A DNA stretch of 64,000 nt. Origin: Magnolia sinica. Taxonomy: Eukaryota; Streptophyta; Magnoliopsida; Magnoliales; Magnoliaceae. This document shows positions 440 to 48,745 of this stretch, one piece after another (position 1 is the first letter of the stretch; every line of letters begins with the position of its first letter). The position numbers were made by a program, and so were the translations under genes. The notes under the pieces are model-generated. The model searched no databases and was not told the DNA's origin. It saw only the letters and a program-made list of their open reading frames with translations. The stretch is taken from assembly GCF_029962835.1 (NCBI RefSeq), contig NC_080577.1, positions 7,912,501 through 7,976,500 on the forward strand, read 5' to 3'.

Positions 440-980
440 ACGCGGATTTACTACGGAAGCCTTTTGCTGGAAGTTCCTTCGCATGGATGCTGAACAGGCC
501 TACTTCACGTTTATGAGAAATCCACCCTGTCCATCCGTTTTGAGAGCTTATTTTAGGATGTTCTACCAAAAATTAGGTGTATAACACGATCAAATGGGCT
601 AAACGAGATGAAACAGTGGGAATTCAGTGAGCACCTTTGAAGCATTTTTATGGCCATAAAAGTTTTACATCAGGCTATATTTTTAGTGTTTTCACTTCAT
701 CCCATTGGGAATGACCTTATAAACGGTTTGGATAGCATATAAACATCAAGGTGGAGCCCAGAAAGGTTTTAACGGTAGAAATTTCTTTTCTCAATTTTCC
801 TTGTCGTGTGACTCTAGTTTTTTATCCACCTAATTTTTGTCACACGTACTAAAGTGAGCTCGAAAAACGTTTGGACGGAATGGATTTATCAAATACATTT
901 CAGTAGGCATCACACAGCATCCCTGCACAAGGCTTTCGCAGGAACTTCCTGCGAAAGGCTTTCGTAGGAAATCCGCGTCC
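440..980 (+). mobile_element. Foldback MITE with exact 9-bp target duplication
   Basis: A 541-bp non-coding element flanked by the exact 9-bp direct repeat CAGCGTCAC at 431-439 and 981-989. Its tips are inverted repeats (GGACGCGGATTTACTACGG on the left; the reverse complement of the right end begins GGACGCGGATTTCCTACGA). The arms match inward for about 90 bp before the shared core. A 9-bp duplication is characteristic of the Mutator superfamily. No transposase is encoded, so the element is non-autonomous. Confidence 0.88.
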
Positions 981-1861
981 CAGCGTCACTGGCCAAACCG
1001 CGTATTATGGAAGGTAGTTGGTACAGTGGATCTCGAAGAACCGTAATGTGGTAGAGCCATCTCGACACAGTACATGTGTCAGGGTGGTTGTTAAAATCAG
1101 ATCCGTCCATACGTAGGACCCTGGCATGGATGTTGTATTTGTTGAAAATAAATACTATTAGACAATCCTACCCAGACGGCAGAAAACAAGAACCATCAAC
1201 GGTGGAGTATACAGTTGTGTAAACTGTAGAAAAAGTAATGAATTAGATCACGTAATCCATCGGTACATGGATGAATCTGGATGGCTTTTCGTTTTTTCTG
1301 TTTTTCTAGCTATACCGTATCATCTCCGCGGATAAGGGGTAGATTCATAAGTTTGTTTTGCCCTATTAAAAAAAATGGTGGTGACTCATATTTCTTACCT
1401 TTGGACCTCACTCACAGCAATCTAGACCGTCCAAATTTTGGATCACATTGTAGATAGAGCATATATATATATATATAACTAGCACTGATCAATCAATTCA
1501 AACTATTCAATTAGTGCCCGGAAAATGGATTGTTATAAGTAAATAGCTAATGATCATAATTTAAAGAGAGAAATCAGATGGTTAATACTGTCTTTTCATT
1601 GCAATATTCTGGTTATGATTCATTCGAGGTTGGCCTAGTGATTTAGACGGCGTGGATTGTACTACAATTATGCCATACGTAAGTCTGCAGATTCACCCAC
1701 ATTTTTAAATGGCGTTAAACTAATAGGGAGTCTCTCGTTATTCACTGGAGCGGGTTTTTTGTTAGCCGCGTAACACGTACGCGGATTTCCACCAATCCAC
1801 CCAGATCATCTGTTTTTTGAGATCGTTGCAGCACTTGAGACAAAAAGTGAGAAAGAAGCGA

Positions 1862-2383
1862 GGATGCGGATTGCGTAGTGAGTAACTGAGTACGCTTAGC
1901 GTACTGAGTAAACTATGTGAGGTCCACCATTATTTACGTATTTCATCTGCTCTGTCCATTCATTTCACCAGATAATTTTAGGGCTTTAGCTAAAAAATGA
2001 AGCATGTACGATGTTCAAATGGACCACACCAGTTGAATTGAACATCTACCGTTGAAAAATACTTGGGGGTCGTGGAAGTTTTTGATCAAGATTATATTTG
2101 TTTTTTCCCTTCATCCATGTATTTATGATCTTATAAACAGGTTGGATGACAAATAAACACCACTGTGGGGGCTAGAAAGGTTTCAACTGTGGAAATCATT
2201 ATCCCTACTGTTTTCTGTGTTATGATCTGATTGATCTTTGGATACGGTTGAATTTTCAACTAAACCCCTTAGGTTAGATGTAAAAACAGATGGACGGCAT
2301 GGATAGACTACATACATTCAAGGTGGGCTCAACTAAGTTTACACAGTACCATAAGAGTGTAATGAGTTACGCAATCTGATTTC
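1862..2383 (+). mobile_element. Foldback MITE, CTGAGTAA-arm subfamily, 9-bp TSD (8/9)
   Basis: A 522-bp element between AAGAAGCGA (1853-1861) and AAGAAGCAA (2384-2392), a 9-bp target duplication with one mismatch. The arms carry TACTGAGTAAAC-type motifs near both ends (GCGTACTGAGTAAAC at about 1895; inverted counterpart near 2330-2375). The core and spacer are the same as in the other copies, with the spacer in + orientation. No coding capacity. Confidence 0.86.
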
Positions 2384-2439
2384 AAGAAGCAAGAGTCACG
2401 TGGGCCGCACCGTAGGGGTGGGCACGGCAATTCCTACAG

Positions 2440-2788
2440 TTGAAACCTCCCTTGGTCGACAGTGATGTTTAGATGCCATCCGTACCCTTGATAAAGTCAT
2501 TCCTACCGGAATGAATTTGAAACTACAGATATTAGCTTGATTTAAAACTCCTACAGATTTATAAATATTTCAACTGTAAACATTCAATCCTTACGTTTTT
2601 GGCCCACTTGAATAATAGATTCAGGTCTATTTTCTTTTGTTTTTTTTTGGCTTCTCAAGGTATAAGAAGCTTTAAAAACATGAATGAATGGAATAGATTT
2701 TTTACAAACATCACGGTGGGCCAACCTAAGTTTCCATCACAGCAACTTCATTGTAAAGGACTTTAACATGAAATCCGCATCTTACTAA
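2440..2788 (-). mobile_element. Degenerate foldback MITE remnant
   Basis: The right half of the core is visible (TTTGGCCCACTTGAATAATAG near 2600, then AATGAATGGAATAGAT and CATCACGGTGGGCCAAC near 2690-2730). It ends in TGAAATCCGCATC, like the inverted tip of the family. The central spacer reads in reverse (GACAGTGATGTTTAGATGCC). The left core repeat is lost or unrecognisable, so the left boundary is approximate. Confidence 0.5.
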
Positions 2789-2869
2789 GACGTTAGTTGG
2801 TGTTGTCCTGACCGTGGGACCCACCTTGATAGGGCCCACCGAATTTGCTGACGCCAAGACAGCTGGTGT

Positions 2870-3720
2870 GTGGTACGCCAGCCAATCCGTTTCCTAGAAA
2901 CTGCTACCTCCGAATGCTGCGGTACAAGCTATACGCCCCAGGATCTGCGTAGATCCAGTACATGGGTTTCGCGCCGTCTCTTAAACGGTGGTGGCTTACA
3001 ACCCTTTTCACGTCATGGTCATACGTCATTCTACACCGATCAATATGGAGTTGGCAGTACGTATCTTATTTCCAGACAAATCCACCGGAAAATCTTAACC
3101 ATCTGATCGGCGGCCACCGCATGGATGGTTAATTGGAAATGGTTCATTGTCCAATTTCAATAGGAATATCACAGGGTTAGGCATAGACATTGTTGCCAAT
3201 ATTAATGTATTATTTAAATATCTTTGATATTATCCGTATCTTCAGCTCGGCGATATCGACAACACAGGTAACAATATTAATAATTCAAGAGTTTATTTGA
3301 CAATTTGTATTTAAAATGCATTGAAATTCAAATCACAATTACACTAGATTTAAGGTGATTCTAAATGCCTAAATTATGATTGGTAATTTATAATTGGAAT
3401 GGGCTGGAATTCAAACCTTGTGTTCGGGAGCTTGTATTTAAAATTCATAAAAATTCTTTAGCGTATTAACCAAACTTGAACTGGATTAAGTCAGCTTGAA
3501 TATCCCATATGAATATTTTAAATGTGATATTTGATATAATATGCCCGTTGAAATATATAGTTCGGCAAAAAACAAGAAAATTTCAAGCATCAGGTGGGCC
3601 ACAAACGTAGGGATCTTAAATAAATGACTTATCAATGTTTTTTTAACATCCATTTGTATGGCTAATGTTTGGACAATTTAGATCATTCTATTAATGTGAT
3701 GTTAGTGTTGCAATCGATTA
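2870..3720. other. Gene-less stretch, nothing recognised
   Basis: The first 250 bp are of mixed composition with an open frame of 78 codons that has no recognisable motif. The rest is AT-rich. I see no gene, RNA or clear transposon end. The motif ATCAGGTGGGCCACAAAC near 3590 is a scrap of MITE-like sequence. Confidence 0.4.
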
Positions 3721-4413
3721 GGCCTTGTTTGATTTTTCTACTAAAATGTAATTATCATGTAAATAGGTAATAATTATTTACCTAGGTAATCACTACATGA
3801 CAAGTTACTTTTTTAACACTTAAATTGAGAATTTTATGAGATTAATGTGGGGCCCATTGTGATGTATGTGACTTATCCACACTGCTCATTTGTTATGTCA
3901 GATGAATTTCGGGCGTGATTAGAAAAATGAGGTAGATTCAAAGCTCAAGTGGACCACACTAAAGGAAACAGCGGGAATCGAACGTCTATCATTAAAAACT
4001 TCTTAGGGCTCTTAAAAGTTTTTGATTAAGCTGATATTTGTGTTTTCCCCTTATCCATGTCTGTGTGACCCTATAAACTAGTTAGATGATTAAAAAAAAA
4101 AAAACTCAATGTGGGCCCAATGATGGAAACAACTTTCAATGATGGACAATTTAAGGTCACTGTTTCCTTTCATGTGGGCCAATTGAGCATTGGATCAGCC
4201 TAATTTTTCGGCTCATGCCCTAAAATGTTCAAATAAAATAGATGGACAGTGCGGATATAACATATATATTAGAGTGAGGTCTACAGATTTAAGTCAACAT
4301 TTTTGTATCGATTTTCGAGGTAGAATTACTGTCACATTTTGAAACGAGGTGAAAAAGTAATAATTACTTATTTACCAGGATTTACAAGTATCATGGAAAA
4401 TCAAACAGGCTCT
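3720..4413 (+). mobile_element. Foldback MITE with alternative GGCCTTGTTTGATT ends
   Basis: The middle (about 3850-4300) is the common foldback core: GTGGGGCCCATTGTGATGTA, then ATAGATGGACAGTGCGGATA, with a + spacer (TTTTTGATTAAGCTGATAT). The outer ends are a different inverted repeat: AGGCCTTGTTTGATTTTTC on the left and AATCAAACAGGCTCT on the right, with inner arms rich in TAATTATTTACC on both sides. Flanking 9-mers CAATCGATT and AAATGAATT agree at 6 of 9 positions, so a target duplication is uncertain. Another copy with these ends begins at about 39990. Confidence 0.75.
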
Positions 4414-7400
4414 AAATGAATTGTGTTGGAGCGTCATTAGCGTGCCACTCGTACCACAACTTAATAGCCTAGCCACGCTTTTGTTATATGTGCAGCACAC
4501 CTTGCATTAAAAAGGAAGTCGAAAAGGCATTTCACTCTAACAAAAAAGTGAGGTTTTAAAATACATCAAGAGATGGTTTCGGCCCAAAACATAATTTTCA
4601 CTCCAACAAAAAATGTATTTCAATTAACTCCAAGTGTAGTCACGATGCCAAAATATGGTTTTGGCCCAAATCCTCTCAAAATCCCTTAAATACACTTAAA
4701 TAGAAGGTGCCAAATAACCTTTAAGGTTTATTTGATGAGGAGAACCATTTGACTAAATATAGACCTCTAAACATCTTATTTTTAACCATTCACTTAGCAA
4801 CCACCACTTGTTGGATATGATTTCAATGTAGAACGGGTTGCAAATGCATTCTTAATACATTTGGAGCAAAAGAAGCCCAAACATAAGTGGAAGTAGTCCA
4901 TCAAAACTGGGCCTAGTCCTACATAGGGCATGATGTAGTTGGGTTTCTAAGCATGTCATTCGAGAAGATTCATTTAGTATATGAAGAAATTATAGGCTAT
5001 TGTAGACACCCCACCTGAATTGAGAAAATCTACTCCTGAGTCTCTTGACTAGATTTCACTAAAATCGCCCATCTCTCAACAACCGTTGAAACCGTAGCAA
5101 AACTAAGAAGCAGGACCTTCGATACATCATAAATGCAGTTATCGGATTAGATCAAGAGACTCCCGAGCCTCAAACCCATAATCAAAGCCAATAGCACACG
5201 CTTGAACTCATACCCATACAGAACTTTGATAAAACCACGTGCATACACTTAAAGAAAAGCGTTGAAAATTGGCTAAATAGAAAGAATATAACCTAAGCGC
5301 CTTGAGAGGCAATGAATGACCTAGATCGGTCAATCATAGATCTTGTGAACCTAGATCAACTAGGAAACATGCTCAGAATGTTGTAGAATATCGTTGAAAA
5401 AAAAAAAAAAAAGAAGGAAAATTTATATACCATCCGCCTACGACATCCACATGCCGATGGTCACCTGACATTCTTTTTACCAGTCCAAGATGCAAATCCC
5501 CTCTTACGAATCTTGTAGTGGTAAAAATTAACAAATGTCCACCATTGACCCATCATAAGCTGATGGTCTACTTTGATACATTCGGACCCCGTCAGTTGTC
5601 TGGGAAAACAAACTAAGGAAAAAATGGCTGAAAAAGCGCCAAGAGAGACAATATAAGTATATAGAGTGAGCTACACATACATGCCTGGGCGGGTCCCCCT
5701 TCTCTAGGAATGTCCATAAAATCTCCCACCAATGCCAAGATTTAAAAAAAAAAAAGAAAAAGAAAAAAAAGAAGCTAGCCCTTGAAAAGTCAATCCCATC
5801 CACGTAAGTCTGCTAGATTAGGAGTAGGGTTAGGTCCAGGAATGTCTAATTATCCGAATAAAAAAATGCATCTAATTTTTCTTTTTCTTTTTGGTATCTC
5901 AATCAAGTTCAGAATACAATCCATTCCAATTTTAATTAACTATATATGATATGAAAATTTTCATAATAATTACATGTGAGGCATCACATTCTGCTATTGG
6001 AAAGCGCAAGTAAGCGATAGCCACATAGCTTCACCTAATTACTTAGATGGCCAATTTTTACTTTAAAACCCTACCTTATATCATTTAATAATAAAAAGTC
6101 TTAGCCTTTATTTTCTGTACTTTTGTCTTGAACTCACTTACTTTTCAGAGAGAAAAATAAAATAAAATAGAAAATATTGTTACTGAATTTGTCCACAGTA
6201 AACACTTTAATTTTCTTTTGGTAATTTGGAAAGGTGCAATGGCATATGTATGTTAATATCTCTATAGCACTGGATCATACCATGGAAGGCCCAAGCACCA
6301 ACAATCCCCAAAATAACCCTAACCCTTCAATGAGCGGCCATGATATTTATGGTTAACAAAGAAAATACAGAAATGATTAACTTTTAATAAGAACCAACAA
6401 ATTTTTTATAACTAAGATCTTTCAATTCAGGGAATGATTGGTGAATGTGCCATCTGTGGTGGACCCGCCTTACCAATAGCTCACATCGTTGTAGCATGGG
6501 CTGCTTGCATGAACTTAGAGCTCAAGCATATTGCACAAACCTTGGGCTTGGTCATTGGACAATACCTAAGCTATTTGGATGGGTGAAATCTTGCTTTCAC
6601 TGATGAAAATGAAATCAATCTCCTTGGATTTGATGGTTTTTTATGTTTGCAAAGCACATTTAGCTATGGAAATTGACTTCCATTTTTGTAGTTTTTTCTT
6701 GAAAAATGGGATTTCTATTTAATTAACAAAACCTGTTATATGAAAATTTTGCTTTGTTATTGTTGACCTTTTACATTAAAATAAGAAATCACTTGTGCTA
6801 CAATAACTAGGTTAGCAAGTATTCTTCAATTTGGATTGTCCATATGACACACATGTATGACTCCTTAGGTGGGCTACATATGATCATATGATCATTGGTT
6901 TTGATATGATTGTTAGATTATCCAATTTAAGTGATTCGGTGGGTCCCACTACAGCTGTGATCATTACATAAAAATTTATAGTATGAACGCTTGAATCGTG
7001 ATCTCTATACATAGTTATTAAGATGGTTATAAAAATTAATTTACGAGGAAAGAAGTTTGACGGGTAAGTCTCTTCATTTCTATTTTTATATTAATATGTC
7101 TTGATTCTCTCACCAATATAGATAGAAAACTTAATTCTATTGGGATGATTTCAAATATCTTTCTCAATAACATCAAGGTATTGGAAACACCTTCCCACGC
7201 AGTGATGCATTTAAGATTTCAGTTTGTGATTTTCATTATTGATGGATGGACGATGGACTTCAATTTGAAATATCATATCACATATCAAAATGCACGTAGA
7301 GAAAATCTCGAAGATCACATTGATTAGACAATCTAACCATCCAATTGATGAACATCAAATCGAAAAGGAGGGCATATGAATCAAACGGTCTGGATTGGCG

Positions 7401-8084: not shown

Positions 8085-8872
8085 TGATTCAACGGGAACG
8101 GATTGGCTACTCCTGCCACCAGCCAATGGCTGGTGTTCAGTGATCTGTGGGCCCCACCATGATGTATGTGTTTCATCCATGCCGTCCATCTATTTTTATA
8201 GATCATTTTATAATATAAAAACGAAAATGAGATATATACCGATCTCAATTGGACCACCTTAATGGAAAGAGTGTTTAGTGAATTTCGACCATTAAAAACT
8301 TTTTGGGGGCATAAAAGTTTTGGATTAAGCTGATCTTTGTTTTTTCCCTTCATCTGGCTAAAAATTAGGCAGATACAAGACTTAGGTGGGCCACACTACA
8401 GGGAACAATGGCGTGGGGATGCTAACCATGTTGATTTTACAAAATAGGCCGCAACAGAAGACCAAGTTAGCAAATGGTGGCTGTAGGTGAATCTGATGCT
8501 CCGATAAGTCTGTTTTGTTGGGTGGTGCAACAATGCAAAACCAGAGACCGAATGATATTTGATTGTTGTATTTAGCAGTGTGAGAAAATATTATCATGAG
8601 AAATACACTAAACAATATTATCACACGTTTTTCGTTATGTCAATTGATTTTAAAATGTTGCATTTTCATGGTGATATTAACTTAAAAAATTATTATATAA
8701 ACATGTATTTATGTTTTAGATTTATTTAATAACTCAAAATAAATACTTTTATTTAATAACTCAACAGAGGAAAAATACGAATCCCAGCCGTCCACCAAAA
8801 AAAACAAAAAAACGAATCTCAGCCGTCCATATAAAAAAAAAAAAAAACCGTCGAATATAAAAACAAAAAATT

Positions 8873-8945
8873 TTCCGTTGCCGGGATTCGAACCCGGGTC
8901 GTTCGGGTGAAAGCCGAATATCCTAACCAACTAGACTACAACGGA
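8873..8945 (-). tRNA. tRNA-Glu (anticodon UUC)
   Basis: Read on the minus strand, this 73-nt sequence folds as a cloverleaf: acceptor TCCGTTG paired with CAACGGA plus discriminator A; an A-box region TAGTCTAGTTGG; anticodon stem TTCGG/CCGAA around loop CTTTCAC, giving anticodon TTC; and T arm with GGGTTCGAATCCC (B box). Runs of T follow the 3' end on the minus strand (the oligo-A tracts below 8872), as expected for RNA polymerase III termination. It lies inside a MITE and looks intact. Confidence 0.93.
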
Positions 8946-9051
8946 ATTGTGAATACTGTTGAAAATTATTATATTTAATGAATATTTAAAAATGGTTTCC
9001 AAAACCCAAAAATTAACCCCAGCCGTCGAATGTATAAAAACTAAAAAAAAA

Positions 9052-9124
9052 TTCCGTTGCTGGGATTCGAACCCGGGTCGTTTAGGTGAGAGCCGAATAT
9101 CCTAACCAACCAGACCAAAATGGA
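9052..9124 (-). pseudogene. tRNA-Glu (CUC-type) pseudogene
   Basis: The duplicate of the neighbouring tRNA-Glu gene. The B box (GGGTTCGAATCCC) is kept and the anticodon loop reads CTCTCAC, which would give CUC. The acceptor stem is damaged: TCCATTT faces CAACGGA with mismatches at two positions. The anticodon stem TTCGG/CTAAA has an internal mismatch. Function is unlikely. Confidence 0.8.
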
Positions 9125-9701
9125 TTCCCAAACATTATTAAAAATTATTTTATTTAATTCATTGTCTTAAGTCGTCATTAAAAAATATTTTGAAAATCTT
9201 CCTAGGAAAATTGCCAAGAATGAGACAAGTTTAGCAAGGGAGTTTTAAGAGCGCTGGTTCTTTAGCAACATGCCCCCAGGATTGATTAAACAACCTGTAA
9301 AGTGCATGTAGACTCCCACCCCGTGACCAGACCGACCGAAGTGGATTGACTGAAATCTGTTTGCTACACATTAGCAAAGAGAATTGGAGGAGAAGATGAG
9401 TTTTCCTGTATTTCCAAAGTGGTATTAGACAGATTGGATGTCAAAAAAACAGTAGGGGGGCTTAGGAGGATTTTAATGGTGGATATCCAATCACTATTGT
9501 TTTCCTGTGGTGTGGTCTACTTGAAATGTATATCCCTCTCAATTTTGGGAACAAGCCCTAAAATAATCTGTAAAATTGGATGAACGGGATGGATGAAACA
9601 CATACATCATGGTGGGGCCCACAGAGCACCGACCACCAGCCACCGGGCTGCTGGCAGGGGGAGTAGCTAATCCGTTTCCTGATTCAACAGCCTAAATTGA
9701 C

Positions 9702-10161
9702 AGACGTGGATTGCCTGTGACCCCAACCGCATGAAGTTCCTGTGATCAGAAGCTAGGTGGGGCCATTGTGATGTTTCTGAGAAATCCAATCGTTCATCTG
9801 TTATTCCAGCTCATGTTAAAGGACATGAGTCAAAAAATTGAGACAGATCCAAAGCTCAAGTGGGCCACACGACAGGAAAAAACAAGGATGGAAATGCCTA
9901 CTGTTGAAGTCTTCACGGAGTTTACTGTGATGTTTATATGTCATTCCCACTGGATGAACTGAAAAATAAAAAATATTTAGGCCGATCCAAAACTTATTTG
10001 CCCCGTGAATATTTCAACGGTGGACGGTCACTCCCCAGTGTCCTAACGTGACCCGGCAAAACAGATGTATCGGGTGAATTTCTCACAAAATCACAGTGGG
10101 CCCTACCTAGCTTCCAACTGCAAGAACTTCCAATAATTGAGGTCACAGTCCATCCGCTTCC
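9702..10161 (-). mobile_element. Foldback MITE, 9-bp TSD (8/9)
   Basis: A 460-bp element between TAAATTGAC (9693-9701) and TAAAATGAC (10162-10170). The arms pair as inverted repeats: the left contains GATTGCCTGTGACC and GAAGCTAGGTGGGGCC, the right contains GGGCCCTACCTAGCTTCC and GGTCACAGTCCATCC. The spacer is reversed (GTGATGTTTATATGTCATTC). Its target duplication starts only four bases after that of the preceding element. Confidence 0.85.
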
Positions 10162-10170
10162 TAAAATGAC

Positions 10171-12558: not shown

Positions 12559-12567
12559 CTCCATTTC

Positions 12568-13185
12568 GGACGTGGATTAGCTGCGACCCCGAATTCAGCG
12601 ATGTGATTGCAACCTTGACTGTGGGTCTCACCTTGATGTAGGGTTGTATATCCAGGCCGTCCATCCATTTTTCCAAGATTATTTAGGGCATGATCCCAAA
12701 AATGAAGTAGATAAAAATCTCAGGTGTACCACATAGTAGGGATTGAATTCTCACCATTGAAAGCTTCATAATTTTTGAATCAAGCTGCTAATTTTGTTTT
12801 TCTCTTCATCCATATTTGTGGATGGCAAATAAATAATGTGGTGTAACCTAGGGCCTGTTTGGAACCTAGGATTAGGTCACATGGAATTGCATTTGGTCCC
12901 AACAATAGATATCAGTTGCGAAATCTAATCCATTGATTATTATAATTCCATAGCCTACCAAACATTTACAAGTTTAACATAATACAAAATTTTTTCCAAA
13001 GGAAAGATTTAATTTACAAATAAGTTCGTTCTTAATTATGGGCTTTCAATTACCACTGTTTTCTCCATGCCCTAAATTAAGTTAGATATATGTTGTGGAT
13101 ATACAATGCATACATCGAGGAAGGCCCTATAAATAGGTTCACACCACTTGGCTGGATGTAGGTCACAGCTAATCCACCCACGTAC
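12568..13185 (+). mobile_element. Foldback MITE with a nested insertion
   Basis: Tips GGACGTGGATTAGCTG (left) and CAGCTAATCCACC (right). Flanking 9-mers CTCCATTTC (12559-12567) and CTCCATCCC (13186-13194) agree at 7 of 9. The left core is clear (CCAGGCCGTCCATCCATTTT) and the spacer is in + orientation. At about 12853 the core is interrupted by about 180 bp beginning GGGCCTGTTTGGAACCTAGG, probably a smaller transposon. The right core then continues with CTTTCAATTACCACTGTTTT and GTTGTGGATATACAATGCAT. Confidence 0.75.
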
Positions 13186-13238
13186 CTCCATCCCTTTCTT
13201 CCTTCCATTGTTACCTTTCTTCCTTTTTAAATGGAAGT

Positions 13239-15727: not shown

Positions 15728-18366
15728 ATGGCGACCACACAATCTCTTCTCCCTCTCTTCATCATCGTCTCCTTCTGCCACGCCACTCTCTTCCTGTCGG
15801 CGATTTCGTCGGAAGCCGTACAAAACCCTAACCCTAGCTTCAATCCCTCTTCGGCACGGGTTCCATTTCCAAAGACGACGAGGAGATCGTCTCTGGAATC
15901 GTCCAAGGCGTTGGAGCTGTGGTGCGTCGCGAAAAATAACGCGGAGGACGCGGCTTTGCAGTCGGCGCTGGATTGGGCATGTGGGGCCGGGGGCGCCGAC
16001 TGTGGGCCCATACAGCAGGGTGGGGCCTGCTTTGAGCCGCAGGACATCCAATCCCACGCTTCCTACGCTTTCAACAACTACTTCCTTAAGAACGGGGTCG
16101 CCCAACAGAGCTGCGATTTCAGTGGTTCCGCTGCACTCACCTCCTTGAATCCGAGTAACGTCTCTGTCTCTTTGGATTTTGAAAACTCTCAGTATCGGCC
16201 GATACGTGCCGGGTCTATTATCTGGTGTGTTGTTTGGCTTCTTTAGCTTCGGTTTCTGAAATCGGATCCGCCTGTATTTGCCTTGTGTGTCGCAGGTCAC
16301 GGGATTTGCGTTTTTCCGTCGAGGTACGCTTTTGGATGAGAACTACTTTTATACTCTGGTAGACTGTGATGGATGATACGCTGGCACTCAGTAATAACTT
16401 AGAAATTGCACATGTGTCATACACGTGTCCAATTAAACCATCCAAATTATGGTACTGAGTGTAGATGTATCATGAACTAAAAGTTAACATTATTTAATAA
16501 CCTGACTAATGGATTGGCGGACATGCTTTGGACGGTTAAAAATGAAAAATATCCAACGGTCCTCTTTCGTCCACGAATCAGGGGTAAGGATTGTTCAAAC
16601 AATCTGATATTATTGTGGTTGTGACTCGGCGACAGTGGGCTGCCAATCAAGTCGGTTTTATTTGAGTTAATCATGTTACATGTACAATTTCTTGCCTCCA
16701 TATCAAGTGTAGTACTTAGCCCGAGCATCATATATAGTTCTCTGCTTGCATCATTTCGTTTACATGGCTCGGAACCCAATATCTGCGCACGTGCACGGCT
16801 CAGGTCAATTTCAGGCCAGGGTAATGGATGGGCTTGGGCTCATGGCCCGGTCAGATTTGAAAGTTTTTCTAGTGAGCCCCGCTAACGTGATTCGCGTATG
16901 TGTGATCGTGATGGGGCCTCGTCGTGCACGTGCCAAAGCTGCACACATACACATGGGAAGCAGATTGCGCACTGAGTAAATTCTGTGGGGCCCACCGTTA
17001 TTTATGTATTTTATCCACTCCGGCCATCCATTTAACCATATAATTTTAGGGCTTGAGGAAAAAAATAAGCATATCCAAAGCTCAAGTAGACCCCACCACA
17101 TGAAACAGTGTGAATTGAACGTCCACCGTTGAAAATTTCTCGGAGGCAGCAGAAGTTTTGGGTGAAGCTGATATTTGTGTTTTGCCTTCATCCATGTGTG
17201 TGTGATCTTATGAAGAGGTTGGATGACAAATAAACATCATTGTGGGCCCTAGGAAGGTTTCAACGGTAGAAATCATTATTCCCACTGTTTCCTGTGGTGT
17301 GGTCCACTTGAGTCTTGGATATGCTTCAATTTTGGGCTTAACCCCTAAAATTAGCTGAAAAAATGGATGGACGGCGTGGATAAACTATGTACATTCGTGG
17401 TGGGCCCAACAGATTTTACTCAGTACGCAATCCAATTTAGCACCCCTTGCCCGAAAATCCGGCCGTTCCCGTCATCACTTGGGACAAACCTCTAAAAAAA
17501 GGCTGGTCGATGAGGAAAGAGATCGACGGTTCACATACAATTTACAATTGTGGTCCACCTGATGAATGTACCAGCACGGTTTTTGACCTGGGCATGTTCA
17601 ATCTAGGACCCACCTGTTAAATGTGCCGATTTGACACGTAATCCTCCTACGTTCGTGTTCAGCGAGGCACCTTCGCCATGTCACTTTGTCATGTGGGCCT
17701 GATTTTGGAGTGATTGACTGGGCATGAATTTCAGGCCCAGCAAATAAATGGTTGGACAGCCATGTTTTCCAAGAAATTGATACTTACAATCTTCCTTTTT
17801 TTTTATTTTTTTTTATTTTATACATAGTTACATGCACCCTCTTTTGGTTTTTTCTTTTCTTTTCTCTCTTGAATTGGCTAGAGATTATGTGTAATTAGAG
17901 TAGAATGGTAGAAATTCTTGTTTGAGGAGAATGCATTGCTATGTTTCCCGCCTGAAATGAAATGGATATGTATATAATAATATCTCTTACCTATTGTTAG
18001 AAAACCAGGAACTCAGGGCTCCGCTCAGTCACCCAATGAGTGAAGACCTAGATGAGTCGACCCATATTCATCAAGTTTTACTTGGTTTAACAAAAACTTA
18101 ATAAAAATTGAAATTTAAAAGTAATCTCTCAAAAACAAAAACAATTAAAAGTAGGTAAAAGAAAATAATAAATTAAGAGAAATGCTCCAGTGCTCTTTGA
18201 TCACTATTAGTTATACTGCTCCTAGTAACATTGGGATACTTGAACCATCCAATCGCCTGATCTAGACTGTACATTAGGTCCACCATCGAAATACCGGAAT
18301 AATCTGATAATCATAACTATCTAATCATCAGCCTTTAGTTCCATATCAGTTATACAAAAATAGGTC

Positions 18367-28182: not shown

Positions 28183-28718
28183 GACTGGGGGAATTGCGTG
28201 GCTACCCCGCTGCCACGGACGTCCAGGGTGGTAGGACTCTGTGGGCTAACCGTGATGTATGTGTTTTATCCACGCCGTCCATCCTTTTTACGAGAACATT
28301 TGAGGGCAATAGGAAAAAATGAAGTATTTACCAAGTTCAAGTGGACTACACCACAAGAAACAATTAGGGATACTGACGTCCACCGTTGAAATCTTCCAAG
28401 GGCCTACAGTGATTTTTACTTGTCATCCATCCTGTTCATAAGGTCATATAGACATCGATGAAGGGAAAAAATAAATATCAGCTTGATCCAAAACTTCTGC
28501 CCCCCCCAGTTAGTTTTTCAAAGGTAGTCGTTCAATCGCTACTGTTCCTGTGGTGTGGTCCACTTGAGATTTTGATATTCTTCAATTTTTCTCTTATTAC
28601 TAAATGAACTCAAAAAACTGTTGGACGGTGTGGATAAAGCATATGCATAGCGGTGGGCCCCACAGTGTCCTGCAACCACGGAGGTCGGTGGTGGCGTGGT
28701 CGCTACGGAATCCGCGTC
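28183..28718 (-). mobile_element. Foldback MITE
   Basis: Left core TGTGGGCTAACCGTGATGTA, right core GCATAGCGGTGGGCCCCACA. The arms pair imperfectly: TTGCGTGGCTACCCCGCTGC on the left, and the reverse complement of the right end contains GGATTCCGTAGCGACCACGC. The spacer is reversed (TTATTTTTTCCCTTCATCG on the complement). No target duplication is evident. Confidence 0.8.
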
Positions 28719-28739
28719 TGGAGGAGCATTGATCAGATA

Positions 28740-30245: not shown

Positions 30246-30775
30246 GTGCGTACCGAGTAACTCAGTACGGTAAGCGTACTGAGAAAACTCCGTGGGCCCC
30301 TTTGTCATTCATGTATTATATCCACTCCGTCCATCTCTTTTATCACATAATTTTAGTGCTTAATCCCAAAAATGGAGTATATATAACCCTCAAATGGACC
30401 ACACCATCAGAAACTGTGTGAATTGAACATCGACCGTTGAAAAATTCTTGGGGACAACAGAGGTTTTAGATCAAGCTTATATTTTTGTTTTCCCTTCATC
30501 CATGTTCTTCTGATCTTATGAACAGGTTGGATGACAAATAAACATCACTGCGGGCCTTAGAAAATTTTCAATGGTTGAAATCAATAGTTCCACTTTTTCC
30601 AGTGGTATGGCCCACTTGAGCTTTGTATATGCATCAATTTTGGGTTGAACACATAAAATGATCTGGAAAAACGAATGGACGGCGTGGATAAACCACATGC
30701 TTTCGCGGTGGGCCCAACTGAGTTTACTCAGTACGATAAGAGCGTACTGAGTAACTCAGTACACAATCCGATTTC
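30246..30775 (+). mobile_element. Foldback MITE, CTGAGTAA-arm subfamily, exact 9-bp TSD
   Basis: Flanked by the exact repeat TGGAATGAG (30237-30245 and 30776-30784). The right end has the full tip CACAATCCGATTTC. The left end begins GTGCGTACCGAGTAACTCAG and appears to lack about ten terminal bases. Arms carry GCGTACTGAG motifs on both sides. The core is well preserved with the spacer in + orientation. Confidence 0.86.
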
Positions 30776-38090: not shown

Positions 38091-38159
38091 AAAAGGGAAT
38101 CAAATGTTTGGCCTGTTCAACACGTGTGGGCTCCAACGTGGGAAACAATTTAGAAGTGA

Positions 38160-39417: not shown

Positions 39418-39419
39418 CT

Positions 39420-39985: not shown

Positions 39986-39989
39986 TAAG

Positions 39990-40395
39990 GGCCTGTTTGG
40001 TTTTCTAGTGCACCAGTAAATACCAGATAAAAGAGTAATAATTATTTTCCATGTATTCAGGGCATACTTGATTTGACCACTTATTTTTTTATCCATAAAT
40101 TGAAAATATTACAAAATATATATAGGTCTCACTGTGATGCATTTCACTTATCCACACCGTTCATCTATTATGTCATTTGAATTTATAGTATGAGCAAAAA
40201 AATGAGGTATATCCAAAACTCAAGTAGACCACACCATGCGAAAAAGGAAATCGAATACTTACCGTTAAAAACTGTATGAGGCCACTGTTTCTTTTGGTGT
40301 GTTCATTTTTTATCTCATGCTTCAATATATTGTAGTAAAATAGATGGACGGAACAGATATATCATATACATTATAGTTCTCTTCCTATTGCATGG
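39990..40395 (+). mobile_element. Foldback MITE with GGGCCTGTTTGGTT end, truncated
   Basis: It begins GGGCCTGTTTGGTTTTCTAG, then an arm with TAATAATTATTTTCC as in the copy at 3720-4413, then the common core (CACTGTGATGCATTTCACTT ... AATAGATGGACGGAACAGAT). The spacer and the right arm are mostly missing. This is a second copy of the core in the alternative terminal setting. Confidence 0.65.
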
Positions 40396-41545: not shown

Positions 41546-41549
41546 CTTG

Positions 41550-41805
41550 GATACCGTCTAATAAGTTACTTTTTCTACTTACAGCAGCGAATAGGTAACT
41601 TATTTCAAATAAATAAGTTTAGTTTATCGTTATTTATAAATAATTTTTTTACTTAAAAGTATTTAATCTTTTTAATTAATTTTTTTAATTTTTATACTTT
41701 TCATAAATTACTGGTAAGATAAAAGAGAGGAGAAGGTAATAAGTAGATTGTTTATTACCTGCACTTATCTTCTTAATATTTTTATTTTGAATTCTTATCC
41801 TTACC
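41550..41805. mobile_element. AT-rich MITE-like block
   Basis: ATAAGTTACTTTTTCTACTT near 41561 is loosely mirrored by AAGTAGATTGTTTATTACCT near 41742. The interior is T/A-rich. The right end abuts the SINE-like sequence. Assignment is tentative. Confidence 0.35.
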
Positions 41806-41807
41806 TG

Positions 41808-41965
41808 AGTAGTAGATTCATAGGAATTTCAACACAATGGGTTGGATTCAATACCCATGAGTGGTGAAATCCCACTAAGTGTGGGTGTGTGTGTGTGTGC
41901 TGTGAAATCTCACTACTGGGTGGCCGTGGGCGTGCATGTGTGGGATGTGTGTATTAAAAAAAAAG
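41808..41965 (+). mobile_element. SINE-like 3' part
   Basis: TAGTAGATTCATAGGAATTT, GGGTTGGATTCAATACCCAT (B-box-like region), GTGGTGAAATCCCACTAAGT, a GT microsatellite, then TGTGTATTAAAAAAAAAGG. It matches the copy at 14925-15034, with an extra duplicated GTGAAATC unit. Confidence 0.5.
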
Positions 41966-41969
41966 GTTG

Positions 41970-44594
41970 GGAGTTTCAAATCCACTCGAAGAGCTGTAAC
42001 ATGTGCCACCGTACCACTATTCTATTGGGCACATGGCTCACTAATAATATCCAAAAATAATTAGATTATCAATGGCATCACTATTAATTACTTTAATATA
42101 ATGATCAGCACCACCGCACAAACATTGTCTATGTATATCAACGGTTAAAATTGTTGGTTAGTCACTTGGACATGATCTTGTGCTTGTGGCCCATCCGAGA
42201 CTTGGAATTTCATTAATTTCGGGCAAGGAATATACTATAGTTGGCTTATTACAACTATTGTGTCAAACACGTCATATGTCACTAATTAGAGCTATCACCA
42301 AAAATCCTCAAAAACTTTTGGATTACAGTTAATTCCCAATCCAAGATGCCAAACACAATAGGTGGATTTTAAATCCAGGGGGTTTCAGATCCTGGGGTTT
42401 CAAAAACACACTCCCCATACAAGCCCTTGCAAGGCAGCCAAACGATCCACCGTGTATTAAAATTATTATAAATGTACAAATGGCGTATCCACGGAATCTA
42501 AACTACCTCGTTTTTTAATTGCAAACCACTCAACCTACTATAATTCTTCTTGTCAAACATCACATCTGCATTCATTTGGGCCATAATCCACGGATCTCAT
42601 TGTGTTTTTTTCTAATCAATGCATTAATATTTTATTAGCATTTGATTTTAAAATAAAATGGTGGTTATGTTACAATGATTAAACTTCGTTTTTTTTTTTG
42701 GGCACGAAATCCCAAGAAAGGAAATTTGTTACTCTGGCATTGAATGATCGTCTAATGTACACATGGCATTCATGTATCCCGATTCAGGCCGTCCATATCC
42801 TGGAACTACATAGATGGGGCCAAATCAACGAATGAATTTCAAAGAATAAGAGGACCGTCCAATTCGTACGGTTATAAGGCTCTGTCCCATCTGTAGTGGG
42901 TCTTACAATTTGGACGGTTCTGATTGAGGTGGACATACACAGCAGATAATGTGACTGCGTGGCTGTGCACAGATGATCATGCTTCATCAAATAACTCCAA
43001 TTCTAATATATCCACAACAGATAACGTGTTATACGTTGTATGTGAACTTTCATACACAACGCTTCTTTCCGAAAGGTGCGACTTGCATGGAGCATCGGAG
43101 AACTTTTTAAGTACAACGCTTTCTTGCCCACAACACGCGAGAAGTAGAAAATCTGAGCCGTCTAAAAGTAGACCTCACAATTACGTTTACCACGACAGTC
43201 CATGGTCTCCATGTATCACCTACTCACTCAACATACGTCGTGCGCTCATGTCTCTCCCTGGAATCCTCTTTTCTACTTCTTTTGGAATTAAATAAATTGA
43301 AATTTTTATTTTAAATTAATTTCAACCGTATAAAGAAGGTATACAGGATAAGATGAGAGTACCTCTACCTCAACCCACCTTAACTATAAAATCAGATGGT
43401 TGATGAAATACTTTCTCCTTATGTAATTAGGTGGACCTTTGGCTGCTTAAGGTTTACTTTTTTTACTTTTACAAGAATCCCAAGATAAGATAAAATGTTG
43501 GATCTTTGACATACATATTTCAATTAGCTTTTAGAAATAATAAATTTTCTTTTTTTATTATCAGTATCGGATGTCTAACATATATACATGATGCTTTTTT
43601 ATTACCAACACATCATCACTATAGATTATGTGTACAACACTTTATTATATACACTTGTCTAATTGTAAGGTGGCTGGTGGCAGTGGGCACAGTAAAACCT
43701 AAAATAAGGTCCCGGTGAGCTTAGTTCAACAAGCCCAAGTCCAGGGTTAAAAAAAATGTTGGTGGGCCCTCCCAACTCAATCTGGAAATTGGTCAAAGCT
43801 CTGCCTTTTAAGGTGAACATTTTCAATCCATTCCTTGATCAGGTGGGCCACATGTGCACAATGGTAATATATATTGAAAAGAAAATTGATCAAATAACTA
43901 TTTCCCACTCCTAATGCTTACCTTGATAAGGTGGACTGCAAAAATAACTGAGCATTAGAAAATGAAACCAAAGCCACACATGTAAGTTGCTTGCTTGCCT
44001 AAACAATAACCGGTGTATTATTAGAATAAACCACGTGTGAATGAAGTGGGGTCGGCGGATGTAAGCCGGGCCATGGACCAAGCTAACAGGTCCGACCCAA
44101 GTCCAAAGCCAGCGAGGTTGGTTGGCCTGCCCGGTCATTGCCACTTCCGTGTTAGTTTTGCACCATTTAAGAAAATGATGGTGGCGCTTCAAATGTACCC
44201 ACACCATAGTTTATCACGCCATCCAAATCGCTGACGCAGCTATGGATGGAGCATAATTTAGACGTTGCACTAAAGAGATGATATTAACCATCAGATTTAT
44301 TATTATTATTTTTTAATGCTTGATATTTTACATTTAACCGTTGGATTGTTAGCCATTAATCCGATGGTTAGGATTTCTTGATCGGTATGGTTTTAAGAAA
44401 TATGTCCCGTCCTCAATAAGACCCACCGCTTGGATGGTCTGACGGGATTCAATCAATGCTCGGCCTGAGAAAGTTGAGTCATCACTAGTTTTAGGATGGG
44501 TCGCAAACTAACATAGGAGTATAAAATAGCAATATTTAATTTTAGGAATTAAGTAAATGGTTTATTTAAATTAAGTATTAAATCTAATGTGCTT
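41970..44594. other. Gene-less stretch before tRNA-Ile
   Basis: AT-rich with many short unsupported open frames. The longest (42924-43295, 123 codons) has no domain or compositional sign of coding. Scraps such as GATCAGGTGGGCCACATG (43839) are MITE-like. Confidence 0.4.
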
Positions 44595-44668
44595 GGTCCC
44601 GTAGCTCAGTTGGTTAGAGCGTTGGTCTTATGAGCCGAAGGTCGCGGGTTCGAGCCCCGCCGGGACCA
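44595..44668 (+). tRNA. tRNA-Ile (anticodon UAU)
   Basis: A 74-nt cloverleaf without an intron: acceptor GGTCCCG/CGGGACC plus discriminator A; A box TAGCTCAGTTGG; D stem GCTC/GAGC; anticodon stem TTGGT/GCCGA around loop CTTATGA, giving TAT, which reads AUA; T arm GCGGG-TTCGAGC-CCCGC with the B box GGTTCGAGCCC. A T7 tract about 20 bp downstream (44687-44693) can terminate polymerase III. It stands alone with no flanking duplication seen. Confidence 0.94.
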
Positions 44669-44679
44669 TTACTTTGAAT

Positions 44680-46228
44680 CTTTAATTTTTTTAAAAAAGA
44701 AATTTATTCTCTATAATTCCTATAGTTTTTTTTTTTTCTTCTCTCTAATTCCTGAAGTTTTTTTTTTTTTTTTTTTTTTTTCCATTTAATACTCTTATAA
44801 TATCTATGGTTGCCTTTCATTTATCGACTCATGGTTGCCTTTCATTTACAGACTCATGCATGCATTTACAGCTGTTTTTATTTTATTTTTCTATAATTTC
44901 TATAGATAATTTTTATTTTATTTTGATTTAATTTCTATATTTGCCTTTCACTATATATATATACTTTTATGTACTTTTATTTCTAGATATTTAATCATTC
45001 AGTTTTTTTTAATTTTGCTTTATTCGTTTATTTTTTATTTTGTTTTACAGGAGCTGCCAATCATTCAATTTGTTGGACCACCTAATGATCTATTATATTC
45101 TTTTCTTTATTTATTATTTCCAATCATTCTTTTCCTAATTTACTGTTTTAGAACTTGGTTATAAGTTCTATAATGATTTCTTTTGCACAAGTACAATCCA
45201 CGGTCAGTTATGAGATTTTGTCTGATGAAACATACCAGTGTCTGCTATCAATACTGCTACCTCTATTAATAACTTTGATTTTTTTTAATAATTTTTTTTT
45301 TTTTTTTATAACTTCTTTTATGTCCTAGCAGAGCACATGATTTAAGACTAGCCCGAGTTTATTGTAACTTGTCCAAAGTCTACTTGGATTTAATACAATC
45401 TTGGTTAAAATATGTAGTCCTGTGTTTGATTGAATAGTGAATGGAGGGATGCGTGCGCATTTGAGGCTTATTAAAGGACAACAAAGTCTTTGTACGTACA
45501 TGCTTTGATATTCTTTTAAGGCAAAAAAAATATATTAAAAAAATCATTTTTCACATAATTTACTGATTTTAATAAGATTTATCGCGTGTGAATAGCAACT
45601 TCATATATAAATAATTTGTGAGTTGGCCAATACAATTTATTTACATATAAATAGATTATAACTTAGAAGCCAAGAAGAATAACACATAATTAGTTTACAT
45701 TTGTAATTATTTTTCAGATATAAAGTGTTCACAACTTAAAGCTTCGTAGGCATCTAAACAACATTAAGATATTCGGAAATAATTCAATTGAGAATATATT
45801 TTTTTCTTATAAATGGTTTGGAACATTGGAATATGACTCAGCTTCAAATGCTAAAGTCCCAAGGCATTATATATTTCATCAAGGATGTATTGTGTAAAAA
45901 TCTTTTTTCCTATGAATGTTTTTGTTTGTTTTTCTAATCTCCCAGTTCTTTTATTAATTATTTTACAAATAGAATGCATGATCAACTATCAAGATATGTG
46001 CACTTCATTATTGTAACCACTCTCTTATTTTAACTTTTATTTTTACAATTTTTATGCTTCAATAAGCGTTAACCACTAGTTGGAAACCCTTTATCTACTG
46101 ATACGTGCTCTAAGAGTGCATAAGTCAAAAATTACACTAGTGAGGTAATCTGAGCTACTGATTAGAGGAGTATGGTCTAGGAAATAAGTCCACCAAACGG
46201 CTCACGTTGAACATGTAGAGTTCATCTG
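44680..46228. other. Gene-less, very T-rich stretch
   Basis: Long T tracts (44726-44737, 44759-44780, 45294-45308) and a twofold repeat of CATGGTTGCCTTTCATTTA near 44807-44850. No gene is recognised. Confidence 0.45.
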
Positions 46229-46726
46229 GGAAATCGGATTGCATACTGAGTTACGCAGTACACTTTTATTTTACTAGTAAACTCTGTTGGGTGTACCATA
46301 AATGTATGTTGGTTATCCACCCTTAGCAGCTCATTTTAATGGTAGAGCCCAAAAATTGAAGTATTACCAAAGCTTAAGTGGACCACACCATAGGACAAAA
46401 TGAGAATAATAACTTCCACCATTAAAACTTTTCTAATGCTGACAGTGATGTTTGTTTGTCATCAAAGGAGTTCATAAGATCACATGGACACAGAGGAAAG
46501 GAAAACACAAATATTGATCCAAGACTTTTTAAAAAAATTTAACAGTAGAATTTCAATTCACACTTTTTCCCCATGGGAAGGTAGACTTGAGATTTGATAT
46601 ATTTCATCTTTGACCTCAGCCCCCAAATTACCTGTTAAAATGGATGGACAAGGTGGATAAAATGTGTAAATCATGGTGGACCGATGGAGTTCACTCAGTA
46701 CGCTAATCAGTACTCAGTCCACTTCC
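46229..46726 (-). mobile_element. Foldback MITE, CTGAGTAA-arm subfamily
   Basis: Left tip GGAAATCGGATTGCATACTG (the best-preserved tip in the window), right tip CAGTACTCAGTCCACTTCC. The core is present on both sides (GGGTGTACCATAAATGTATG; AATGGATGGACAAGGTGGAT), with the spacer reversed (GTGATGTTTGTTTGTCATC). Flanking 9-mers do not match. Confidence 0.82.
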
Positions 46727-47112
46727 ATCATTGAGCTCTGACTGTTGATGTAATACTTTTTTGAATCTGTATTCTGTTTATTTCGATCTAATCGGGACAT
46801 ATCATCACGTCTGCATTTAATGGAGCAGAAGCCGGATTCTGCCCTCTTTATTTTCTTGGGAAGGTCTTTTTTCTTTTATTTAGGTCGCGATTTTTTGTGT
46901 AGAACGGATTCCATTCTGGAGTTGTTGAGAAGTCTGGATCACGGCATGTATGAGTTGGGGCCAGGGTGGATGATAAGACCATTGACCTCTTCCGCCAAAA
47001 CCACGTTCATTGATTGAGACAGATGATCTGAGCCGTGGATATACTACACATACACACATACATCAAGGTGGACCCACGTTCAGGGCCGTTCCTAATCCGC
47101 TCCTCATAAAAT

Positions 47113-47300
47113 GAGTTCCTTTTGCCTTTTTCGCGACTCAGATCGGGCGAGTTTCACCATCCACTGGGGCCCACATGCGGAGATTAAACAGGTTATTTGA
47201 GAGTGACCAGACGCTGAGATTCCCTGGAAATAGGTGATTACCGGGATCTCAAATTAATCCACTGGGGCCCACCGCAATTGCCAAAGATGGCCTTCGAAAA
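47113..47300. mobile_element. Family 2 MITE, left part
   Basis: GAGTTCCTTTTGCCTTTTTC, then GCGACTCAGATCGGGCGAG and CCATCCACTGGGGCCCACAT, matching (inverted) the right part of the copy at 49405-49755 and the tip of 61940-62270. The right end is not identified. Confidence 0.5.
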
Positions 47301-47355
47301 CCATTCCGTTGATTGGTTAAAGAGGTTATATGATACGGAGTCTGTGTATGAAGAT

Positions 47356-47579
47356 TGATACTCGGTCACTCAGAAATTTTACACCTAGTATATGTTAACT
47401 CTAATTACAAACAGAAGATCACATTGGTTGAAAAATCCTAACCGTTGATAATAAAATATACTAGATCTTTGGTACCATAAATTGAACGGTTTAATTTGAC
47501 TACTTATATTCCACTTACCCAATTTCTAATTATTTTCTGAAGGCTTGTGTATCATACATCACGGTCTGCCAGAGTATCA
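47356..47579. mobile_element. Family 3 inverted-repeat MITE
   Basis: It starts TGATACTCGGTCACTCAG and ends CACGGTCTGCCAGAGTATCA, an inverted pair like that of 61498-61875. The 224-bp interior has TCCTAACCGTTGATAATAAA. No coding sequence. Confidence 0.55.
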
Positions 47580-47624
47580 AGGTCATTCTCTTAGTAAAAT
47601 AGCTACGGTGGAGAGCCCAAATAA

Positions 47625-48055
47625 CTGAATGGTCTGTGGGACCCAACATGATCTGATTATTAAATCCGATCCGTTCATCATTTGTGTGAAATGATTTTAG
47701 TATTTGAACGTAAAAATCAGATGGATCTGTAGCTTAAGTAAGCCACACTACAGGAACAGGGGTATAAGGGACGACTACCATTGAAACTTTTCTAGAACCT
47801 CAACCTTTGGCTTATAAGCCATCCAACCCATCCGTAAGGTGTGTCCCACTGGAAGAAGGGAAAAACCAAATAACAGCCTTGTCTAAAACTTCTCTGGCCT
47901 CAAAAACGTTTTGATTGGAGGCATACCATCCTCACTTTCGCCATGATATGGCCAACTTTAGTTTTTGGTGGACCATATTTTTGGGTCCGCAAATGATGGA
48001 CGGAATGGATTTGGTAAGAAGAAAGACATAAATCACAGTGGGCCCCACAGAGCTT
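47625..48055 (-). mobile_element. Diverged foldback MITE
   Basis: Left part CTGTGGGACCCAACATGATC, right part GATGGACGGAATGGATTTGG with CACAGTGGGCCCCACAGAG. The spacer is in reverse orientation (AGAAGGGAAAAACCAAATAA). It is more diverged than its neighbours. No clear arms or target duplication. Confidence 0.65.
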
Positions 48056-48230
48056 TTTCTTGCACAACTCTCTTCCCAGGCTGTCGCCGTGAGTGCCGCC
48101 TACACGCACGTAAATACATCCGGCGTACTCGCACCTACTATTTATAAGACCGAAAATGCCCCTCTGGAGCGCGCAAGATGCAGGATGGTAAGTCAACGGC
48201 CGATGGAGGCTTCGTACCGTTGTTTTTGTA

Positions 48231-48745
48231 TATACAGAGCGTCCTGCTCCCGTCCGGACCGAATCGGTCCAGTCAGGGGCCTGTGGGGCCATTGTAATAC
48301 ATGGGGTTTATCTATGCCGTTCATCTATCTTTACATATCATTTTAGGAGTTGAGCCCAAAAATAAGGCAGATAAAATCCTACATAGACCACCCAAAGGGG
48401 ATTTAACTTCCACCATTAAAACCTTCTCGGGGCCACGGAAGTTTTGGATCAAGCTGAAATTTGTATTTTCCATTCATCTATTTCTGTGTTATTATGAACA
48501 GGTTGAATGGAAAATAAACATCATGGTGGGCCCCAAGAAGGCTTCAACGGTGGTCATCATTATCACCTCTGCTTGTTTTGGTATGGTCCACTCAAGCCCT
48601 GGATCTATTCATTTCTGGAATAATATACTAAAATGACCTGTAAAAATGGATGAATGGCGTGGATAAAACCCATACATCACTGCGGGCCCCACAGAGGCCC
48701 TGCCTGGACCGATTTCCGTTCAGGCGAGGGCAGGACGCAATCCAC
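48231..48745 (+). mobile_element. Foldback MITE with GC-rich arms
   Basis: The arms pair clearly: GCGTCCTGCTCCCGTCCGGA with GGTCCAGTCAGGGGCCTGTG on the left; the reverse complement of the right end has GCGTCCTGCCCTCGCCTGAA and GGTCCAGGCAGGGCCTCTGT. The core and + spacer (GTTTTGGATCAAGCTGAAAT) are well kept. These arms are shared with no other copy in the window. A 9-bp target duplication was not found. Confidence 0.85.

Follow-up and report, generated by a model that had tools for sequence, protein, structure and literature searches.

It is an unsettled point of transposon evolution how an element can change its jointly recognised ends and stay mobile. For Galileo of Drosophila mojavensis, whose terminal inverted repeats (TIRs) vary strikingly, the available text of the published account proposes repair of a broken TIR on the template of the opposite TIR of the same copy, or of another copy, and exchange of this kind as the origin of subfamilies; copies in which TIRs of one subfamily surround the interior of another are also described (PMC3573991). 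In the CMITE families of Acropora corals, which are piggyBac-like miniature inverted-repeat transposable elements (MITEs), different TIRs accompany a highly conserved interior, and a short terminal motif is kept (PMC2872659). Changes of TIR structure have likewise been reported for plant Mutator-like elements (MULEs) with multiple long TIRs (Ferguson and Jiang 2012, PMC3310237), in a study whose available text does not contain the terms gene conversion and gap repair. Here we analyse a MULE-type MITE of Magnolia sinica that is present in many copies in a 64-kb stretch of contig C5 (positions 7,912,501-7,976,500, referred to as the window) and in the rest of the 1.84-Gb assembly (1,838,573,281 bp, 127 contigs). 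Since several families that share one interior and have different, matched ends coexist in this one genome, the tract length, direction and rate of copying between ends become measurable. We propose that the ends evolve in concert, one end probably being copied onto the other now and then within an element lineage. The original prediction, which concerned the co-variation of left and right arms within copies of the window, held that no described mechanism fits exactly; the Galileo proposal and the differing TIRs around a shared interior in CMITEs speak against that view. The mechanism itself has been proposed before, and what is new here is that, in a plant MITE, the histories of ends and interior are separated quantitatively.

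The long TIR of the magnolia element consists of a common tip of ~12 bp (approximately GG(G/A)A-CGGATT, by eye), a family-specific arm of ~40 bp and an outer core of ~120 bp, and the two TIRs enclose an interior whose End1 and End2 sequences are distinct; since these differ, each copy has an orientation. Lengths of 35 copies from families A and D range from 534 to 559 bp, a few flanking bases counted in. Among 128 distinct paired copies from the window and the genome, a 9-bp target duplication is present at 9/9 in 40 and at 8/9 in 20, the chance level in 1328 random flank pairs being 0.3% for 9/9 and 1.05% for at least 8/9. The duplicated sequences are varied and 9 bp throughout, and correspond neither to the 7 bp of Galileo nor to the TTAA of piggyBac and CMITE elements. 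By their duplications, TIRs, size and copy number the elements are Mutator-type MITEs of ~0.5 kb, and all copies appear from their sequences to form one very abundant, putatively non-autonomous MULE-type lineage. Domains of MULE transposases (PF10551) are frequent in the genome, the best 150 of 1104 candidates all being over the cut-off. In the window, the core motif has seven matches at no more than three mismatches (none in 100 shuffles), and a half-core profile search gives 68 half matches at E≤1. An unselected sample of 20 spaced 10-kb stretches (200 kb) from contigs C1-C9 holds 19 paired copies, with at least one half match in 15 of the 20 stretches, and rough extrapolation from it points to a genome-wide copy number of the order of 10^5. 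An exact-pattern scan of viral contigs gave no match, and a lone exact-pattern match in a contig of a bacterial metagenome-assembled genome was set aside, its surroundings being unlike the element. The terms MITE, Mutator and MULE are absent from the main text of the Magnolia sinica genome paper, as far as that text is available (PMC10999834).

Seven arm types are represented by several copies (A 17, B 10, D 22, H 9, K 10, E18 7 and E10 4), and types J and C by one copy each. The arms of the two ends match in all nine types (z 6 to 39). Arms of different types had been described as unrelated, which is mostly so: 13 of the 162 comparisons between types reach p≤0.05 uncorrected, the best being A-C, J-C, B-J and B-E10, and one of the 13 is the similarity of type C to the related arm of the window copy at 12568-13180. 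Most genome copies were fetched by a match that included one arm, with the other end free and the best 32-40 matches per query taken; 94 loci (L030-L123) were obtained by arm match, L100-L109 among them by arm plus core, and gave 82 usable pairs. In these the two ends are of the same type in 66, one end is unclassified in 13 and neither is classified in two, and a single pair (L061) combines two types. That left and right arms pair within copies and that types differ between copies, as originally claimed, is borne out by the 60 duplication-supported copies, 57 of which have the same type at both ends and three of which have one unclassified end. An unselected set of 30 copies, paired by script in the window and the 200-kb sample (the window copies at 438, 9702 and 12568 were missed by the script), contains eight whose arms score at least 30 against each other, a value at the 99th percentile of comparisons between types. 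A duplication of 8/9 or 9/9 is present in only three of the 30, namely the window copies at 8145 and 1915, with matched arms, and L018:5718, with related A-like arms at both ends (score 26). Unselected copies are mostly too decayed to judge, and the few intact ones have related arms. No arm was seen on an unrelated interior among ten pairless loci inspected, nine of which contain at least one core half, within the best 32-40 matches per arm, so that rarer combinations could escape; the tenth, L081, has an arm and only a core stub and was taken as a truncated copy. Nested insertion as a source of arms was likewise set aside, as no relics of tips or duplications were seen by eye between arm and core, a point for which no systematic search was made.

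The histories of ends and interior were compared in a quartet test, in which the consensus End1 and End2 sequences of the seven families were aligned from the core border inward and each of the 21 family pairs was scored by whether an end lies nearer to its partner within the family or to its counterpart, the same end in the other family. In 30-bp intervals starting at columns 0, 15, 30, 45, 60, 75 and 90, likeness within the family prevails in 21, 20, 18, 16, 18, 20 and 18 of 21 pairs, and at 105, 120 and 135 in 13, 12 and 8; over the five intervals starting from 150 to 210, likeness to the counterpart prevails in 16, 21, 21, 21 and 21 pairs. Taken together, the outer 120 columns favour the own family in 21 of 21 pairs (95% range 18-21 in 200 column bootstraps). 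At the level of single copies (up to four per family, 56 ends), median distances computed with FastTree place all 56 ends closer to the other end of their own family in the outer core, and all 56 closer to the same end elsewhere in the interior; the nearest neighbour is of the own family for 46 of 56 ends in the outer core and is the same end for 56 of 56 in the interior. The outer-core tree recovers A, H and K as monophyletic families, and the interior tree separates End1 from End2, each as a monophyletic group. The pattern is that of concerted evolution, with repeats more alike within than between lineages and the linked interior behaving in the opposite way, the outer core of D being the exception. 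The co-varying unit is thus the arm together with ~120 bp of outer core and not the arm alone, so that co-variation does not stop at the border between arm and core where it had been placed originally. Nor are arms swapped independently of the core, as had also been supposed, since the copied tract includes the outer core, arm type is a stable family marker and the D ends keep their differences. Agreement of core and arm trees throughout, named beforehand as the sign of simple old subfamilies, is not found when the ends are set against the interior. The outer core aligns among all seven families, and divergence between families is similar there (0.27) and in the two interiors (0.20 and 0.24), as expected if whole elements share ancestry. 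The interior sequences indicate that the families derive from one ancestral element; given such an ancestor, ends that are more alike within than between families require that sequence has passed between ends after the families split.

Families differ in how far the likeness of their ends extends. The longest identical run between consensus ends is 124 bp in A (~112 in another consensus), 113 in K, 54 in B and 49 in E10, and 22, 22 and 16 bp in H, E18 and D, respectively; the H End2 consensus mixes long and short arms, which lowers the figure for the H arm. In six of the seven families the two ends are less distant from each other in the outer core than, on average, from the nearest other family, with a slim margin in B (0.191 vs 0.203). 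Tract lengths and ages therefore seem to differ between families. As to direction, outer-core distances between families are correlated with End1-interior distances (r=0.81, p=0.004), the correlation between the End1 and End2 interiors being weak (r=0.51, p=0.09). For the outer part of End2, distances agree better with the End1 interior (r=0.84, p=0.0016) than with the End2 interior (r=0.54, p=0.06); for that of End1, they agree with the End1 interior (r=0.70, p=0.025) and not with the End2 interior (r=0.02). These comparisons suggest that copying may have run mainly from End1 to End2, seven families being too few to settle the matter.

Within families, the two ends of a copy are mostly inherited with the differences that they have. 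In most of 19 D copies the ends stay different, the left arm reading GGAAGCGG... with the loop GGTAAG and the right arm GAAATCGG... with the loop CTCTTAT. The two ends of one copy are more alike than ends drawn from different copies in the A outer core (p=0.0002), the D arm (p=0.01) and the K outer core (p=0.04). A TGGT beside the core is present at both ends in four of 24 distinct B rows (L003, L104, L105 and L106) and at one end only in none, by eye; the four rows are probably one subfamily and hence count as one event. Pairing of the arms in every copy, as originally described, is not strict, since eight of the 60 duplication-supported copies have arms that differ by more than 12 bp. Among 11 H copies, five (L004:1875, L073, L076, L077 and L078) combine a long End1 arm with a short End2 arm that has no hairpin segment, three are long at both ends and three have a disrupted or unclear end; the duplication is 9/9 in three of the five unequal copies and 8/9 in one. 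L044 of family D is unequal in the same manner, with a duplication of 8/9. Since unequal copies have duplications, equal arms are unnecessary for mobility: one-sided length changes occur, within one arm type, and their carriers remain mobile. In the B loci L005, L009, L101, L103, L107 and L127, the End2 arm and outer core look partly tandem-duplicated (~40-50 bp, by eye), and L009 has a target duplication of 9/9.

We consider it likely that copying from end to end is occasional, becomes fixed in the founders of families and is followed by faithful inheritance, the interior being inherited as in any transposon family. A new arm would first appear on one end. It could then be transferred by gene conversion, or by break or gap repair templated by the opposite inverted repeat, within the same element or between two copies, with the homologous tip on the outside and the outer core on the inside carrying the tract across the non-homologous arm. 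Amplification of such an element would produce a family with matching private arms, whose two ends would thereafter drift apart. Several observations weigh against this account. It is based on only seven families, in which most copies were chosen by a match to one end, and the outer-core tree does not recover four of these (B, D, E10 and E18) as monophyletic. Beyond ~150 bp the two sides of the interior may at no time have been inverted repeats of each other, in which case the reversal seen there reflects shared family ancestry and not an absence of copying. Outer-core and End2-interior distances are not clearly correlated (r=0.31, p=0.21). In family D the outer-core distance from end to end (0.293) exceeds that to the nearest other family (0.242), although the arms are 83% alike; either the copied tract was short there, comprising only the arm, or selection kept the arms matched. 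The excess likeness of own pairs would not survive correction for the D arm and the K outer core, it is absent in 11 of 14 within-family tests, and the K arms of own pairs are slightly less alike than those of different copies (p=0.995). Copying must accordingly be rare, and continuing homogenisation in every copy is ruled out by these tests, the one on the K arms leaning the other way. Finally, none of the 60 duplication-supported copies has two different arm types, so that the step by which a new arm spreads is not directly seen. The original prediction had an arm copied from one side to the other and looked to copies with mismatched arms as intermediates: quartets and trees uphold the passage of sequence between ends, and the mismatches found are the eight one-sided differences in length, with no copy halfway between two arm types found.

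The families might instead be simple old subfamilies that diverged by mutation alone from an ancestor with near-perfect TIRs, without any transfer between ends. The D ends that keep their differences through amplification, the arm type as a mark of families and the correlation of outer-core with End1-interior distances would all be accommodated in this way. One would then expect, however, that the ends of one element are never more alike than the same end of two families, the opposite of what is seen in all 21 pairs over the outer 120 columns, and two family consensuses have more than 110 bp of identity between their ends. Mutation alone is refuted by the quartet result as a complete account, and we give it only a slim chance; for the time after a family was founded it is the right description. 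A founder that arose by copying one entire half as an inverted duplicate would acquire matching arms at once, and the long inverted repeats do extend well into the element. The End1 and End2 interiors are nevertheless distinct, common to the seven families and each monophyletic, by which such whole-half palindromisation is refuted for the families examined, and we regard it as scarcely conceivable.

Selection could also have coordinated the ends. If the same transposase binds both, changes of one arm may be followed by changes of the other without copying; the position of the arms is presumably where transposase-binding sites sit in the TIRs of other MULEs, and in D the arms are matched at 83% and the adjoining 30 bp of core at 62%. 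Identities of more than 110 bp in A and K, outer core included, are hard to obtain without copying, and the intact duplications of unequal-arm copies mean that perfect matching is not required. We think this explanation unlikely, and it is compatible with copying. It is somewhat easier to entertain, but still improbable in our estimate, that different MULE families with their own pairs of TIRs took over the same interior by ectopic recombination. Galileo offers a precedent in its X-E-X copies, in the available text (PMC3573991), and the arms of L061 are of type B on one side and of type A on the opposite one. This locus is of odd length and shows no matching duplication by eye, so that it reads as two overlapping elements, and it is not among the 60 duplication-supported copies; moreover, capture of an interior sits poorly with a divergence that is similar in the outer core and the interiors, and with an outer core that can be aligned in all seven families. 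Occasional copying between ends is the explanation that we retain.

Elements of the MULE superfamily such as maize Mu have 9-bp duplications and long TIRs, and their TIRs are shared and their interiors different. The magnolia MITE is the opposite, with a shared interior and different ends. From Galileo, a member of the P superfamily with 7-bp duplications, it differs by its duplications of 9 bp and by private arms without shared sequence between families, a feature not mentioned in the available text on Galileo, where the 12 copies with TIRs of two subfamilies are said to lack matching duplications (PMC3573991). CMITEs differ in being ~100 bp long, with TTAA duplications and TIRs of 13-14 bp, and the accessible part of that report holds no test of copying between ends; tandem arrays of full-length MITEs are a point of likeness (PMC2872659), found in magnolia on contig C13. 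There, D-type arms at C13:66,260,873-66,265,834 are spaced at approximately multiples of 544 bp (five of 40 matches listed), and among the matches listed a D-type arm occurs twice at C16:42,461,136-42,461,737 with a spacing of 535 bp. Both are probably head-to-tail arrays of whole MITEs, the adjoining end being visible in L035. The MULEs of Ferguson and Jiang gain a second TIR, according to the text available (PMC3310237), whereas in the magnolia MITE an arm would be replaced. A literature search that covered few subscription papers found neither a test of ends against interior nor these elements described. The test itself is simple, comparing ends within and between families, outside and inside, and can be applied to any MULE or MITE lineage.

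By eye, arms of types A, D and H are built of a unit, its inverted form and the unit again. When the nine arm types (10 arms) were folded as single-stranded DNA and compared with shuffles, A, D, E10, K, E18 and H folded better (z -5.6 to -2.3; 7 of 200 shuffles equalled H). Arms B (z -0.9), J (0.0) and C (+1.6) fold no better than shuffles, J and C being single copies, and three core controls gave z of -0.9, +1.8 and -0.1. Hairpin arms are consequently no general rule, three of the nine folded types failing. Compensatory stem changes are few, with three double changes vs 28 broken in 165 H cells and none in 281 B, 398 D and 386 A cells, and were not used as evidence. The loop of the D arm looks inverted between the ends by eye (GGTAAG vs GATAAGAG), which would fit a palindrome-driven event and is suggestive only. 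As a tentative reading, which we think has a low likelihood of being correct, the arms might be exchangeable recognition cassettes, that is, private modules, often hairpins, at the presumed binding place of a MULE transposase; a new module at one end, copied to the other by repair templated by the opposite repeat, would hand the same MITE body to a different transposase. If true, one core would have been adopted in turn by several MULE families, explaining its very high copy number.

Twenty loci were inspected in the window, and left-right arm pairing was found in ten, eight from the original prediction and two new (~12568-13180 and ~28187-28719); the other ten are decayed, truncated or unpaired. 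Outer ends were read from the sequence and several are approximate. The copy at 438-980 (plus strand) has type A arms (CTACGAAAGCC...), the tip GGACGCGGATTT at both ends, a duplication CAGCGTCAC of 9/9 and a TIR alignment score of 64. Type D arms are found in several copies on the plus strand. That at 1862-2383 has long arms, the left one of class D and the right one decayed and unclassified, with a duplication of 8/9 and a TIR score of 29.5 (arm sequence CTGAGTAA). At 16955-17438 (right tip approximate) the short form of the arm, with the hairpin segment absent at both ends, scores 66.5, and at 30246-30775 the arms are long at both ends and score 58.5, the left tip being lost; TGGAATGAG on both flanks of the latter is its target duplication, by eye, and among the matches listed at least 15 in the genome, this copy included, are identical to its right arm over 67 bp. 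A further copy at 46228-46726, on the minus strand, is of class D at both ends, decayed and only weakly paired (score 19).

The type B copy at 8094-9679 (plus strand, arm GGCTACTCC, duplication TGATTCAAC 9/9) is 1.6 kb long, with an 84-nt inverted repeat that is 89% complementary. Its interior contains ~1.1 kb of extra DNA (8340-9440) with two tRNA-Glu-like genes, at 8872-8946 (68.9 bits) and 9052-9124 (32.2 bits, near the cut-off of 29), possibly tRNA genes captured by the MITE. Type C is represented by the copy at 9702-10161 (minus strand, orientation from the alignment; CTGTGACC/GAAGCTAGG), with a duplication of 8/9 and a TIR score of 59. The arm GGATTAGCTGTGACC of the copy at 12568-13180 (no strand assigned, ends approximate, TIR score 32) is apparently related to it. 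An additional arm type (CCTGCCACCACCGACC...) is carried by the copy E10 at 28187-28719 (minus strand, TIR score 67, ends approximate) and has 32 genomic matches, the copy itself included. The copy E18 at 48231-48749 (plus strand, arm CGTCCTGC/GGTCCAG, TIR score 67) has a decayed left tip, and its arm yielded 523 first-look candidates in the genome, of which the best 40 were scored. At 47634-48050 (minus strand) lies the core of a decayed copy without matching arms (arm score 12, best duplication 5/9). No target duplication was found for the window copies at 12568-13180, 16955-17438, 28187-28719, 46228-46726 and 48231-48749. The reverse orientation of the copies at 9702-10161, 28187-28719, 46228-46726 and 47634-48050 adds to what had been described originally.

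Outside the classified arm types, a core at 3845-4286 (plus strand) has long AT-rich flanks (GTAATAATTATTT..., 3747-3845), and similar flanks occur at 40025-40125 beside another window copy (E15). They may be a further, longer arm type, L057 being perhaps similar. At 395-437, between a truncated first copy (1-395) and the element at 438-980, the right flank of the former looks like a B arm, so that an insertion of one MITE into or next to another's arm may have occurred. Elsewhere in the window, direct repeats of 208-300 bp, 78-93% alike and ~4.6 kb apart, are found at 51457-56775, and a field of short degenerate repeats lies near 56900-57930.

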